This document shows, one piece after another, positions 58,472-63,811 of a DNA stretch of 64,000 nucleotides. The DNA is from Fulvivirga sp. M361. GTDB taxonomy: Bacteria; Bacteroidota; Bacteroidia; Cytophagales; Cyclobacteriaceae. The notes beneath the pieces were generated by a model. It worked only from the letters and a program-made list of their open reading frames with translations, did not search any database and was not told the origin of the DNA. The position numbers were made by a program, and so were the translations under genes. Where the stretch lies: positions 62,001 to 126,000 of the forward strand of contig NZ_VKDC01000009.1 in NCBI RefSeq assembly GCF_007097395.1, in the 5' to 3' direction. Each line of letters begins with the position of its first letter. Position 1 is the first letter of the stretch.

Positions 58472-59131
58472 ATGAGTATAGAATATTGGTATTATCGAAT
58501 GGCAGATTTTATGACATTGATGGCATTTTTATCCTTCCTGATAAGTACCAAATATTCTAACAAAGAATTGCTACTAATAAAATGGATGCTTTGCATTTCG
58601 GTTATTTCAGATGTGACATTCGCTGTTCCCTTCTATTTTCTGAAATCATATATACCCTACACAGGTTTGATATATCGTGTGGCTGAATTTGTTTTATTAG
58701 TAGAATTTTATTTTCTGGTATTTGGAAAAAATTTTCCAAATAAACTGAAATGGTTGAGTCAGCTCTTGATACCTGTTGCTGTGATTACGTTTACATCTGT
58801 TGATGCCACACCGCTAAGAATAACAAGCAGCATTTTATTCAGTATACTTTCTACTCTTTGGTTTCTGAAAATAATAAGGGAGATGAGTGTTGGTATACTT
58901 ACTAACCTTCCTGTTTTTTGGATGAATTCAGCTTTCCTTCTTTACTTTTCAGGATCGCTTTTCCTTTTTTTGCTTTTCGAACCATTGGGTAAACTCCACG
59001 AAACTTCCGCTATTGTTTCTTATATGTTTCATAACCTATTGGGCGTAATTAAAAACATATTAATTGGGGTAGGTTTTTGGAAGGCAATAAAACTGGCAAA
59101 AGGCCAAATTTCATTGAATTATGACAGATGA
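58472..59131 (+). CDS. Polytopic membrane protein of a three-gene signalling unit
   Basis: 219 aa, about seven hydrophobic helices (around 9-26, 34-54, 66-84, 92-110, 114-134, 145-168 and 184-205). No enzymatic motif. Its stop overlaps the kinase gene by 11 bp, and the kinase itself overlaps the regulator, so the three form one translational unit. The most likely role is membrane sensor for the kinase, which has almost no sensing domain of its own. I do not recognise the family. Confidence 0.78.
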   Translation: MSIEYWYYRMADFMTLMAFLSFLISTKYSNKELLLIKWMLCISVISDVTFAVPFYFLKSYIPYTGLIYRVAEFVLLVEFYFLVFGKNFPNKLKWLSQLLIPVAVITFTSVDATPLRITSSILFSILSTLWFLKIIREMSVGILTNLPVFWMNSAFLLYFSGSLFLFLLFEPLGKLHETSAIVSYMFHNLLGVIKNILIGVGFWKAIKLAKGQISLNYDR

Positions 59132-59930
59132 GGTATTGAATTTGGTAATAATTCTTGTGATAGGGACTTCGGTAACGTTGTTTCTGTCCATTGCCATTAT
59201 TTCTTTCGTAGTGTACTACCAAAAGCGCATGCTTCAAATCAAAATGGAGCGACAAACACTGGAATCGGAATACCAAAGCCGGTTATTACAGGCTACACTG
59301 GAATCGCAGGAAAAAGAAAGAAAGCGGCTGGCTTCGGAGCTTCATGATGGCGTAGGTGCTATGCTCTCAGCCACCAAACTGAGTTTGAATTTTCTTAAAA
59401 AATCAAAGTTAAACAATGACGCTTTGGAATCTGTTAGCGAAGCAAAAGATATGATCGATGATGCAATTGATACTGTAAGAAGAATATCTAAAGATCTTCT
59501 TCCGGCTTCCCTGGAAAAGTTTGGCCTGTCAGAGGCGTTGAGAGAGTTTTGTGATAAGGTTAGTTCAACTCAGGTCAATGTAATTTTTAATGATTACGGT
59601 ATTAAGCCCTTATTAGAGAGAAAAGATGAACTCCCGGTTTATAGGGTGGTCCAGGAAATTGTGAATAATGCTTTAAAACATGCACAAGCAAAAAACATCA
59701 ACATAATAATAAGGAGTGAGGGCTATTTTGATCTTACCATTGATGATGATGGTAAAGGTTTCAATATAGAAGCGGTTAAGAGTGATATCAACAAGGGGGT
59801 TGGATTGTATAATATCGAAAACCGTGTAAAAATGTTGAAAGGTACTATGGATGTGAAAAGTGAGGCGGGAATAGGGACAACGTACAAAATCACCATAAAA
59901 AATGAACAAGTGGACAGTATACATAGCTGA
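59121..59930 (+). CDS. Sensor histidine kinase, NarX/DegS type (HisKA_3)
   Basis: 269 aa. One membrane helix (about 7-32) and a coiled coil (KRMLQIKMERQTLESE), then HisKA_3 with H75 in LASELHDGVGAMLSATK and HATPase_c with N-box VVQEIVNNALKHA, G1 DDGKGF, and GVGLYNIENRV. No periplasmic domain, so the signal must come from the membrane protein encoded just before it. It phosphorylates the NarL-type regulator that follows (29-bp overlap). Confidence 0.93.
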   Translation: MTDEVLNLVIILVIGTSVTLFLSIAIISFVVYYQKRMLQIKMERQTLESEYQSRLLQATLESQEKERKRLASELHDGVGAMLSATKLSLNFLKKSKLNNDALESVSEAKDMIDDAIDTVRRISKDLLPASLEKFGLSEALREFCDKVSSTQVNVIFNDYGIKPLLERKDELPVYRVVQEIVNNALKHAQAKNINIIIRSEGYFDLTIDDDGKGFNIEAVKSDINKGVGLYNIENRVKMLKGTMDVKSEAGIGTTYKITIKNEQVDSIHS

Positions 59931-60558
59931 CGATCAAACCTTATTTAGAAAAGGGATGAGCCGCCTGGTACGTAGCTTTAAGAATGTAGCAGAAGTTCGT
60001 GAAGCAAGCAACGGTCAGGAACTGCTCGATCTGGTGTCTGATAAAAGGCCGCATGCAATTTTAATGGACCTGGAGATGCCAATAATGGATGGTGTGGAGG
60101 CTACTGAAAAGATATTGGCAAAATATGATAATATTAAAATCATCGTCTTGTCTATGCATGATTCACAAAACCATATCTTCTATATGATAGAAGCCGGTGC
60201 TCATGCCTTTCTGCTCAAAAATGCTGAGCCTGAAGAAGTAGAGCAGGCTATTGAGTCAGTGATCGAAAAGGATTTTTACCAAAATGAGATCGTTAGCGCT
60301 GCATTACGTAATGTGACCAGAAGCAGAAAAAAAGTTGATAGCAGGCCAGTTTTCCAAAATCAGGCGGTCTTGAGTGATCGTGAAAAGGAAATTCTCATAC
60401 TCATAAGCCGGGAGTTAACAAATAAAGAGATCGGAGAAAAGTTATTCCTGAGCGAAAAGACGATTGAAAACCATAAAGCCCGTATGATGGATAAAGTAGG
60501 CTCGCGTAATTCTATAGGACTGGTAAAATACGGGTACGAAACGGGCCTTATTACATGA
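59902..60558 (+). CDS. NarL/FixJ-family response regulator (LuxR HTH)
   Basis: 218 aa. Receiver with D10-D11, phospho-acceptor D56 in LMDLEMPIMDG, SMHD in place of the usual T-A, K in FLLKNAEPEE. The C-terminal LuxR-type HTH is at about 155-215 (LSDREKEILILISRELTNKE and LSEKTIENHKARMM). Overlaps the kinase gene by 29 bp, so stoichiometry is probably coupled. Confidence 0.93.
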   Translation: MNKWTVYIADDQTLFRKGMSRLVRSFKNVAEVREASNGQELLDLVSDKRPHAILMDLEMPIMDGVEATEKILAKYDNIKIIVLSMHDSQNHIFYMIEAGAHAFLLKNAEPEEVEQAIESVIEKDFYQNEIVSAALRNVTRSRKKVDSRPVFQNQAVLSDREKEILILISRELTNKEIGEKLFLSEKTIENHKARMMDKVGSRNSIGLVKYGYETGLIT

Positions 60559-60581
60559 TTAGTGGATTTCCCTCAATTCTG

Positions 60582-60620
60582 TAGGTGAATTCACCTAATG
60601 TTTTGCTGCATTTATATTTG
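60582..60620 (+). promoter_or_regulatory. Palindromic operator candidate with a -7 promoter element
   Basis: TAGGTGAATTCACCTA at 60582-60597 is a perfect 16-bp palindrome; 15 bases later TATATTTG (60613-60620) is an 8 of 8 match to TAnnTTTG. The palindrome lies about where the -33 box would be, as expected for a repressor or activator site. It begins 24 bases after the NarL-type regulator stop and lies upstream of the degenerate-receiver gene (60741). Confidence 0.5.
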
Positions 60621-60740
60621 TAATATACTTATAATCAACAAGTTAATTGAAAATCTGAGTTTTCTATCGGGGTAATCCCTTAAAACCTGATCAGGCTAGC
60701 TACTAAATTCGTGGAGTAAGAATTTAAATGTTGGCTTGAG

Positions 60741-61193
60741 ATGAAACCCACAATTCTAATAGTACATCAAGACGATAGAGATAGGAAACGTATGCACGGC
60801 ATACTTTCGAACTTCGAATTTGATCTTATTTATACAAATGATGGTCTTAGCGGTTTGCAGGCAGCAAGATATCTGAAACCGGATTTGGTCATTTGTGAAA
60901 TCGAATTAAAACTTATCGATGGTCTTACATTGGGTAAGAATATTCGAAATGACGAAGAGATAAGCGAGACGCCATTGATATTTCTTCACCATGAACTGGA
61001 CCTTGTACTTATAGAAGAGGCTAAGAAGCTTTCGTCAAGAGCTTTTTTAATTAAGCCTTACGTGGATAATTCGATTATTTATGGTGTGAAACGGGGACTC
61101 CGCAAGGCCCATCTCGTGACCTCGGCTGACCGGAGCCCTGTTCCTTATGAGGAATGTTTCATGAACGTGAGTGCTAATCAGCGTTACGTTTAA
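60741..61193 (+). CDS. Stand-alone pseudo-receiver protein (degenerate response regulator)
   Basis: 150 aa with the receiver fold pattern (TILIVHQDDRDRKRMHGIL, PDLVICEIELKLIDGLTLG, AFLIKPYVDNS). Key residues are altered: the acidic pair is H9-Q10, the phospho-acceptor Asp is E53, the conserved Thr is H83; only Lys105 remains. No output domain follows. It cannot be phosphorylated in the normal way and should act by protein-protein binding or as a constitutive, phosphomimetic-like form. It sits after a NarL-type regulator and behind a palindrome-containing promoter. Confidence 0.85.
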   Translation: MKPTILIVHQDDRDRKRMHGILSNFEFDLIYTNDGLSGLQAARYLKPDLVICEIELKLIDGLTLGKNIRNDEEISETPLIFLHHELDLVLIEEAKKLSSRAFLIKPYVDNSIIYGVKRGLRKAHLVTSADRSPVPYEECFMNVSANQRYV

Positions 61194-61535
61194 ACAAAGA
61201 ATTGTTTTATTGCCAATCACTCGTTATTTAAGCGTAAAAACTTTAATTTATTTGCACATTCTTGGCTACGGATTTGGAAAAAGTAGATGACAGGACAGGA
61301 TACATGAATGTTGTGATCTTCAGAGACCAAAGCCATGAGAATCTGAAAGCGTATTTAGACTTCTTTTCTGGTTTCTCAATGACAGTGCTAAACAGCTGCA
61401 GTATATACTGAAACAGAAGAATCTCTGAACAAGTAACAGGCCAGTACAGTAGTGGATTGCTACGAAATGATCATGAGTAATGGCTAAAAACTAAAGATTA
61501 TTTGGTTAATTTTCCTACAAACATAATCCCCGGTA
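61194..61535. other. 342-bp gene-free region before the membrane protein/patatin pair
   Basis: Contains a short readable frame (about 61262-61408, ending NVVIFRDQSHENLKAYLDFF... with stop at 61406-61408) with coding-like amino-acid content but no good start. It may be the remnant of a lost gene. No terminator or other motif stands out. Confidence 0.35.
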
Positions 61536-62567
61536 ATGCTGAACTCCAATGTACTCGACATTGTAATAGGCCTTGTTTTCATATATCTGATTTTAAGCCT
61601 GTTCGCAAGTGCTATTAATGAACTTGTGATGCGCTGGTTGTATTCAAGAGGTAAAAATCTGAAGAAAGGGATTGTGAACCTGTTATCCGATAACGGTAAA
61701 GAAACAGATATACTGGTAAGTAAATTTCTTCAAAGTCCATCATTCAGGAAATTTTGTAGTTCTAACAATACGTTACCGTCTTATCTGACAGACCGTCGTT
61801 TCGCTGAAGTGTTATTGTTTATACTTAATGGAGACAATAGCACGAAGCAAAATATTGGAAGCATTAAAAAAGGAGTTGAGGCCTTACCTGAAGGAAATAC
61901 CCGGCAATGGCTCATGGCGCTAATTACTGAAGCAGGCGAAAATCTGGAGGACTTGAGAGAACAGCTAAAAAGCTGGTATAACGACGTTATGCAACGTGCG
62001 TCAGGTTGGTATAAAAGGAAAGCTCATCTTTTTCTTTTCATCATCGGCTTTCTCATTAGCATGGTGATGGATGCTGATACCTTTCAAATTGTGCATAAAC
62101 TTAACAATGACCCGTTGGCCAGGGCTGAACTGGTTAAAATGGCAGAGCTCCAGTTGGCGCTACTTTCGGAAGACTCAGCTCAAACGGCTATAACTGACTA
62201 CAGCCTGGATTCATTGTCAAATAATCAGAATAGGCAAAGAATAGGTCAATTAGAGCAACGTGTAGACAGCCTATTCACAAATCAAATTGCTCAATCACAA
62301 AGCATACTTGGTTTGGGGTGGGACATTCCGCAAACTAAATCAGTATTGGTAGCTGGTGAAAAGATTCAGCACAAAACGTCACTTGGTGAAAAGATCGAAA
62401 GCATCTGGTCACAAATTTCTTTTCAGGGAGTTTTTGGGTGGCTAATAACGGCGTTAGCCATTTCTTTAGGAGCCCCCTTCTGGTATGACCTTTTGAACAG
62501 GGTCGCCAGCCTCAGAAGTACAGGTCAAAAGCCTGTGGACAAAGAAATGCCAAAAAGCTCAATATAA
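61536..62567 (+). CDS. Membrane protein paired with a patatin-like phospholipase gene
   Basis: 343 aa. First helix about 7-27 (VLDIVIGLVFIYLILSLFAS), then INELVMRWLYSRGKNLKKG, a cytoplasmic-like region of about 130 residues, a second helix about 166-182 (HLFLFIIGFLISMVM), a hydrophilic region with coiled-coil content, and a last helix about 300-320 (FGWLITALAISLGAPFW). I know no named family. It ends 6 bp before the patatin ORF, so the two likely act together, the membrane protein possibly placing or restraining the lipase at the membrane. Confidence 0.75.
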   Translation: MLNSNVLDIVIGLVFIYLILSLFASAINELVMRWLYSRGKNLKKGIVNLLSDNGKETDILVSKFLQSPSFRKFCSSNNTLPSYLTDRRFAEVLLFILNGDNSTKQNIGSIKKGVEALPEGNTRQWLMALITEAGENLEDLREQLKSWYNDVMQRASGWYKRKAHLFLFIIGFLISMVMDADTFQIVHKLNNDPLARAELVKMAELQLALLSEDSAQTAITDYSLDSLSNNQNRQRIGQLEQRVDSLFTNQIAQSQSILGLGWDIPQTKSVLVAGEKIQHKTSLGEKIESIWSQISFQGVFGWLITALAISLGAPFWYDLLNRVASLRSTGQKPVDKEMPKSSI

Positions 62568-62573
62568 ATACGG

Positions 62574-62816
62574 ATGGAAAAATTCTTAAATGCACCTCAG
62601 TTAAAATTATTCAGGGATAAAGCCCAGGAAATTAAGGCTTCCGGAAAACGATTTTCCGATGTTGAAGATGCTGCCGGACATCAGTTTGTAGACTTGGTGC
62701 AAGAAGGTGGGGGCGTTTTAGGAATAGCATTAGCCGGATACACGTATATTCTGGAATCAACAGGTATACGTTTTTTAGCCTGGCAGGAACATCGGCAGGA
62801 GCAATTAATACATTGA
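62574..62816 (+). CDS. Patatin-like phospholipase, N-terminal part (frame breaks at a slippery heptamer)
   Basis: 80 codons: MEKFLNAPQLKLF..., then the oxyanion-hole motif VQEGGGVLGIALAGYTYILE (GGGxxG), typical of patatin-like phospholipases, ending IRFL and then a run of unrelated residues (AWQEHRQEQLIH) to a stop at 62816. The familiar continuation SLAGTSAG lies in the -1 frame. So this frame alone would make an inactive short product, while a -1 shift at 62771-62777 joins it to the C-terminal part. Confidence 0.85.
   Translation: MEKFLNAPQLKLFRDKAQEIKASGKRFSDVEDAAGHQFVDLVQEGGGVLGIALAGYTYILESTGIRFLAWQEHRQEQLIH
62771..62777 (+). other. T TTT TTA slippery heptamer in the correct phase for -1 frameshifting
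   Basis: In the frame of the N-terminal part the codons are CGT-TTT-TTA-GCC, so T TTT TTA has the X XXY YYZ phase needed for a -1 slip. After a slip the next codons are AGC CTG GCA GGA ACA TCG, SLAGTS. It is the heptamer used by HIV-1 gag-pol. A weak CCTG/CAGG stem occurs directly after it; no strong stimulatory structure is clear. A loss of one T from a run of seven would look the same. Confidence 0.6.
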
Positions 62817-63811
62817 TGATGGCAGCCTTAGGGAAAATTGAAGAGGCTAAATCTGAAAAAATTTTAGACATTCTGAGTAAGAAAGATCTGTTTGACATAG
62901 TGGATGGGGATAAAGCCATTAAAAAACTTATACAGAAAGCTATTAAAAAGAAAAAAGGGCTTGGTTGGAGTGTATTCGTTAATGCTTTTAAGATCTATAA
63001 AACGCTAAAAAATAAACTTGGAATCAACCCGGGAACGGACTTTGAACGGTGGATCACCCGTGAACTTAACAAGCAAGGCATTGATACTATCGGGGACTTA
63101 ATGGAGTTAAGAATGCAAGCTCCTTCGGGCCTTAAAGATGTTACAACGGGAGCATTAATAGATGATCTATTTCCTGACTTGGCAATTGTAACCTCAGATA
63201 TTACCACGAATACCAAAGTGGAATTTCCCAGGATGGCCTCATTGTATTGGAATGATTTTAAAAGCGAGAGTCCCGCTAAACTGGTTCGTGCTTCTATGTC
63301 CATCCCTTTCTTCTTTGAACCGTTCAAAGTAACCAACATTCCTGATGCAGGAAAGGAAAAACACCCGCTTTGGAATGAGAATGCGAAATATTTCGGGCCG
63401 GTACCGGCCTCGGTCAGTTTTGTAGATGGTGGAATGCTCAGTAACTTTCCTATTGATGTATTTCATCGCCAGGATGGGGGTGTTCCCAGGATGCCCACTT
63501 TCGGAGTCCGGTTGAGTACCTACCGCGAAGAGTTTAATAGTACAGATAGCCTATTTGGCTTTAGTGGTGCAATGATCAGTACTATGAGGCAAATACACGA
63601 TTATGATTTTTTAATGAAAAATCCTGATTATCGCCAACTTATATGCCGTGTAAATGCTGATAAAGACTTCAATTGGCTTGATTTTCAGATGCCTGTTAAC
63701 GAGCAAGTAAGACTGTTTTTGAAAGGAGCCGAAGAGGCGGTCAAATTTCTCGATGAATTTGACTGGGAAAAGTACAAAGAAGTGAGACGTAACTTTCCCG
63801 GGTCTTACTGA
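62778..63811 (+). CDS. Patatin-like phospholipase, C-terminal part (-1 frame)
   Basis: In frame -1 the sequence continues SLAGTSAGAINTLMMAALGKIEE, with nucleophile Ser in GTSAG (GxSxG), then RGxSxP-like and FVDGGMLSNFP with the catalytic Asp (DGG). A normal start exists only at ATG 62813/62816, and a product from there lacks the GTSAG serine, so it would not be active. The complete protein is about 410 residues. Together with the N-terminal part this is a patatin/RssA-like serine acyl hydrolase acting on membrane lipids. Confidence 0.85.

Follow-up and report, generated by a model that had tools for sequence, protein, structure and literature searches.

Layout of the patatin locus

The window, a 64,000-nucleotide stretch of Fulvivirga sp. 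M361 DNA, carries near its end a patatin-like phospholipase gene on the forward strand that is divided between two reading frames. The first piece (62574-62776, frame 0) encodes EGGGVLG, with the oxyanion-hole motif GGGVLG, and is 58% identical to the corresponding part of L004, an intact relative. Its open reading frame extends from 62574 to 62816 (80 aa); the last part lies outside the family frame and is closed by the stop codon at 62814-62816. The second piece (62777-63811, frame -1) encodes SLAGTSAG, with the nucleophile motif GTSAG, and FVDGGMLSNFP, with the Asp motif DGG, and ends at the stop codon 63809-63811. Frame -1 is open from 62666 onwards, yet offers no ATG, GTG or TTG ahead of 62813. 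With GGGVLG and GTSAG in different frames, the oxyanion motif and the catalytic Ser are not in one polypeptide here. The two pieces meet at a heptamer, T TTT TTA (62771-62777), which is read as CGT TTT TTA and has the X XXY YYZ phase of frame 0. An earlier note had reported this heptamer and its phase, together with the distribution of the three motifs over the two frames, and our frame reading bears out both.

Codon usage changed frame at the same place. The log-odds sum of frame 0 was +17.1 before the break and +0.5 after it, whereas that of frame -1 was -10.4 before the break, +1.6 across the next 13 codons and +74.2 thereafter. Since the codon-usage signal swaps frame at the heptamer and the motifs lie in two frames, the break is truly in the sequence. 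Piece 2 alone matched Pfam PF01734 (Patatin) with an E-value of 1.1e-17 (bit score 65.3, cut-off 27.7) and was 70-71% identical to the same-genus relative; piece 1 alone gave no match in the Pfam search. Alignment to intact relatives left a single empty column between the pieces, corresponding to the heptamer residue.

Two further features of the gene are relevant. At 62814-62818 the stop of piece 1 overlaps an ATG in the frame of piece 2 (TGATG), also on the forward strand. At 63607-63613 (forward strand), a second in-phase T TTT TTA occurs as GAT TTT TTA within the peptide HDYDFLMKNP, which is identical in L004 and L005. This heptamer is read straight and is an internal counter-example to frameshifting at such a site. 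Searched with piece 2, the strain's own genome (148 contigs, 8.13 Mb) gave a single locus, namely that of the window.

Genomic neighbourhood and family placement

The gene upstream (61536-62567, forward strand) ends 6 bases ahead of the patatin start, and its product appears by eye to be membrane-bound. A homologue (32% identity over 369 columns, E 3e-37) is encoded upstream of the patatin gene in L004 (142-1221), with two genes intervening. Neither of these two proteins had a match in Pfam, NCBIfam or PADLOC. Within 59121-63811 of the window the patatin gene is preceded by genes for a histidine kinase, a response regulator of the NarL type and a lone receiver. Homologues of the regulator and receiver precede the intact patatin gene in L005 (530-4017), L011 and L012 (another genus), and L005 has the kinase as well. 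L005 and L012 are seemingly one gene; with short flanks at most loci, the two-component/patatin neighbourhood recurs.

No solved structure was close by sequence: with L004 as query the only match was PlpD (5fqu, E 0.0067). Structure prediction for the intact L004 with L005 returned a mean pLDDT of 34, too low for the model to be relied on. Three other assignments were rejected for L004. A PADLOC phospholipase-effector match (6.3e-5), seen for L004 only, was too weak to indicate membership, and the NCBIfam scores for VpdC (24.6 bits, cut-off 1000) and TIGR03607 (18.7 bits, cut-off 262.45) do not amount to membership either.

Relatives at the break site

Relatives were collected with intact L004 as query (E 1e-20) from 390 genomes of the family and 390 of the order, of which 14 and 24, respectively, were positive. 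Both sets include the window's own genome and genome G092, which leaves 35 relatives besides the window. The gene is patchily distributed: within the genus it was present in 2 of 15 genomes, counting that of the window.

All 35 relatives read through the site in a single open frame, and none has the break. In 33 of them GGGxLG and G[T/S]S[A/V]G fall within one open frame, L016 and L021 being contig-edge fragments that span the site. The remaining two, L014 and L015, were read by eye and each passes straight through in one open frame. These are full-length patatin relatives from one genus, open across 420 codons. L014 lacks GGGxLG, GxSxG and DG and is probably a pseudoenzyme, judging from its sequence; L015, which lacks GGGxLG and retains GISSG and DG, is perhaps one too. 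Longer open frames (480-692 codons) were seen in L017, L018 and L043-L045, where the query matches in two parts around an insert.

Codons at the site were compared among 33 relatives. This count leaves out the strain's own loci (L001, L009, L023), repeats of the same gene (L002, L004, L005, L020, L022, L046-L048), the distant L003, L014 and L015 (read by eye), and L019, a C-terminal fragment whose genome is already represented in the count by its other fragment, L021. L005 was treated as the same gene as L012 because of an identical 120-residue end. The same-genus relative has CGT TTC TTC at the site, while further close relatives have CGC TTC TTC, CGC TTC TTT or CGT TTC TTT; close relatives encode RFF[S/N]LAGTSAG in a single frame. 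By hand count, the T run was at least six long in 10 of 33 relatives and at most five in 23. Seven T in frame occurred in two (L010 and L013). In three others (L032, L035 and L038) the identical in-phase heptamer is present as CGT TTT TTA and decoded straight as Arg-Phe-Leu.

The earlier note had suggested the locus in relatives as a check, expecting that seven T in all of them would point to an error or a recent mutation. The unbroken frame proved universal among the 35; seven T occurred in L010 and L013 among the 33 compared. Its proposal that one T has been lost, by mutation or by error, fits everything seen, including the single-frame RFF[S/N]LAGTSAG of close relatives and the longer T run in 2 of 33.

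Conservation and decay of the two pieces

Conserved columns were defined as those with at least 95% conservation across 26 relatives; beyond the exclusions above, this set also left out L017, L018 and L043-L048 (long insert), L016 and L021 (short fragments), and L014, L015 and L003. The two pieces together retained 88 of 89 such columns and 77 of 78 invariant ones, the single change being Tyr to Phe.

Synonymous sites were saturated between the window and its sister L002. We compared dN to six outside relatives over matched codons, and piece 2 was slightly above L002 in five of the six comparisons: 0.365 against 0.326 to L005, 0.355 against 0.287 to L007, 0.341 against 0.322 to L008, 0.335 against 0.323 to L010, and 0.364 against 0.322 to L011. 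It was below L002 in the sixth (0.462 against 0.482, to L013). For piece 1 (62-67 matched codons) dN exceeded that of L002 in four of six comparisons. In a tree of 34 relative rows, in which three genes are present twice, the end branch of the window piece was 0.44 and that of the sister 0.15. Selection may thus be slightly relaxed at most, with the family-defining residues not lost. The pieces are so little decayed that the break is either recent or a base-call error.

Frame breaks elsewhere in the assembly

Coding-frame switches were sought by codon usage over 1.16 Mb of the assembly (8.13 Mb in all). At the loose threshold 28 candidates were obtained, 8 of them within 60 bases of a homopolymer run (A or T, at least six long) and one lying antisense to the patatin gene. 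The strict threshold left three strongly supported switches, one of which has such a run within 60 bases. The 704 sampled ORFs contain 1935 runs of at least six of any base; together with the spike-in recovery given below, this puts breaks at runs at about 0.2% (strict) to 1.2% (loose, probably mostly chance) of runs. Breaks at homopolymers therefore appear to be rare in the part sampled, and this speaks for a true indel more than for systematic miscalls. Sensitivity was low: of 400 spiked-in one-base deletions, drawn from 1758 sites, 141 were recovered at the loose and 92 at the strict threshold. The patatin break was itself not flagged on its own strand by this codon-usage scan, in our opinion because only 13 codons separate it from a possible start.

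An earlier scan gave 6 candidates on the window's contig, with a spike-in recovery of 96 of 200 drawn from 287 sites, and 4 candidates in 320 kb from a one-contig genome of the same genus. Four candidates cluster on contig C1 of the same genome at about 220660-225800 (L131, L132), perhaps a decaying or mobile region. One strong candidate, with an A6 run nearby, lies on contig C138 at about 7731 (L049), possibly a second indel in the same contig as the patatin gene. The assembly includes two contigs of 249 bases; these suggest short-read data, which call a T6 run well.

Heptamer frequency and potential stimulators

T TTT TTA is not a rare heptamer here: it occurs 67 times in the window on both strands, against 46.9 expected from shuffles, and 23 times in frame in the 204 ORFs of at least 150 codons on the contig. 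Three stretches of RNA downstream of the break did not exceed shuffles in stability (z 0.50 to 0.77) in simple folds without pseudoknots. A stretch including the 5' sequence folded somewhat better (z -1.30), and 24 of 200 shuffles folded at least as well. The only Shine-Dalgarno (SD)-like bases found upstream by eye were AGG at 62762-62764, and these are missing from the two closest aligned relatives.

In Bacteroidia, SD sequences generally go unused in initiation, although many of these genomes (523 of 726) have the prfB +1 frameshift with its SD-like element (PMC8710568). SD-driven shifting is consequently possible in the group generally. With regard to the heptamer, U UUU UUA is the HIV shift site, with a known mixture of Leu and Phe products, and in E. 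coli U_UUU_UUA is described as far less shift-prone than A_AAA_AAG (PMC5009743, in the section cited).

Origin of the frame break

We regard this as an ordinary patatin-like phospholipase gene whose frame was, with a probability somewhat above even, broken by a true and recent one-base indel in a short T run. The indel would have arisen in the strain by slipped-strand mispairing, as homopolymer runs suffer, and the change in run length sits between the oxyanion-hole loop and the nucleophile. The strain would then be left with a non-functional peptide of 80 residues and, at most, a little active enzyme: as read from the sequence, this product would contain the oxyanion motif without the nucleophile, and active enzyme would come only from background slippage. 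The heptamer itself is accounted for by a conserved Phe-Phe or Phe-Leu in T-rich codons and by indels falling in runs, rather than by selection for a slippery site. Features expected of a gene frameshifted by a recent indel or a sequencing error were found: homologues are unbroken, none shares the break, and it lies in a homopolymer run.

The chief rival, to which we give a smaller but still considerable probability, is that the T run was misread, through a base-call or consensus error, and that the organism itself has an intact gene. An error would explain why the two pieces show so little other damage (88 of 89 conserved columns kept), and the scarcity of other decay is expected from an error just as much as from a true indel. 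The record is a draft in 148 contigs, and a lone break at a site where 35 relatives are intact and confirm it belongs to a class for which the GeneTack survey (PMC3711429) anticipates sequencing errors and not indels. The scan weighs towards the true indel, as only one strong switch lies near a run against 1935 runs in 704 ORFs, yet a recovery of 92/400 at the strict and 141/400 at the loose threshold and the failure to flag the patatin gene on its own strand limit what it can say. The 249-base contigs, as a sign of short reads good at T6 runs, also speak against a miscall; so do the slightly higher dN of piece 2 and the longer end branch (0.44 against 0.15), unexpected from a miscall, though both are weak points. 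Taken together, a true indel and a base-call error make up a highly probable explanation of the break.

The explanation put first in the earlier note was programmed -1 frameshifting, and this was not upheld. That ribosomes shift at U UUU UUA, in a programmed or usefully leaky manner, and so yield a small share of active lipase is consistent with the correct phase of the heptamer exactly at the break, with the use of the same site in HIV (PMC5009743), with the retention of conserved columns in both pieces and with the somewhat better fold of the stretch that includes 5' sequence. We nevertheless consider it very improbable. The break recurs in none of the 35 relatives, all of them in one frame; the same heptamer is read straight in three of these and again at 63607-63613 of the same gene; no simple, pseudoknot-free downstream structure stabler than shuffles was detected; the sole SD-like AGG is missing in the two closest aligned relatives; and U_UUU_UUA is a much weaker shifter than A_AAA_AAG in E. 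coli (PMC5009743, same section). Among the hallmarks of a programmed -1 site, the heptamer phase is present, while neither conservation of the break nor a stimulator was found. There is only a slim chance that a real indel is combined with low-level -1 slippage at U UUU UUA, giving a trickle of active lipase and keeping the allele as a low-dose form, the indel being a 'savior' indel made good by leaky decoding. Such leaky reading, if true, would be an unusual dose control through slippage in a stable bacterial gene. Phase variation, in which slipped-strand mispairing at the T run toggles the enzyme on and off, is likewise quite unlikely. Runs of at least six T in 10 of 33 relatives, two of them with seven (L010 and L013), would suit it, yet contingency loci are not expected to have runs as short as six or seven, runs of at most five in 23 of 33 relatives indicate that the run is not maintained, and the off state is seen in no relative. 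Least probable of all, and barely credible, are two separate products, in which the 80-residue peptide is followed by a 331-residue protein through TGATG reinitiation, and RNA polymerase slippage on the T run. The overlap at 62814-62818 does exist and translational coupling is known to create apparent frame breaks (PMC3711429, in the part cited), but the reinitiated product would begin downstream of GTSAG and thus without the nucleophile serine, and the Met codons of piece 2 align with residues that vary among relatives. For polymerase slippage, a context-dependent case is described at the short run T5C5 of a Roseiflexus IS element, whereas the efficient bacterial cases in the cited section are at runs of nine (PMC5009743).

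The value of the case is chiefly cautionary. Indels that hit T runs can easily leave what looks like a perfect slippery heptamer where the frame breaks, and it is the relatives that settle whether such a heptamer is a programmed site.

Comparison with known systems

The gene and its break are of an ordinary, already known kind. The motifs GGGxLG, GxSxG and DGG that mark patatin-like phospholipases (PF01734) are present here too; unlike in those proteins, the window copy is divided between two frames. In heptamer pattern and phase the site resembles the programmed -1 sites of dnaX (A AAA AAG) and HIV (U UUU UUA), as described in the cited section (PMC5009743). It differs from both in that the break is unconserved and has no simple downstream structure, and in that identical heptamers, in three relatives as well as elsewhere in this gene, are decoded without a shift. 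A further parallel is provided by the lone breaks ('singletons') of the GeneTack survey, which are attributed there to sequencing error or recent indel (PMC3711429). The window break is likewise confirmed by homologues and common to none of those found, and nothing notable sets it apart from them, except that in the window case the T run and the gene's condition are both described here.
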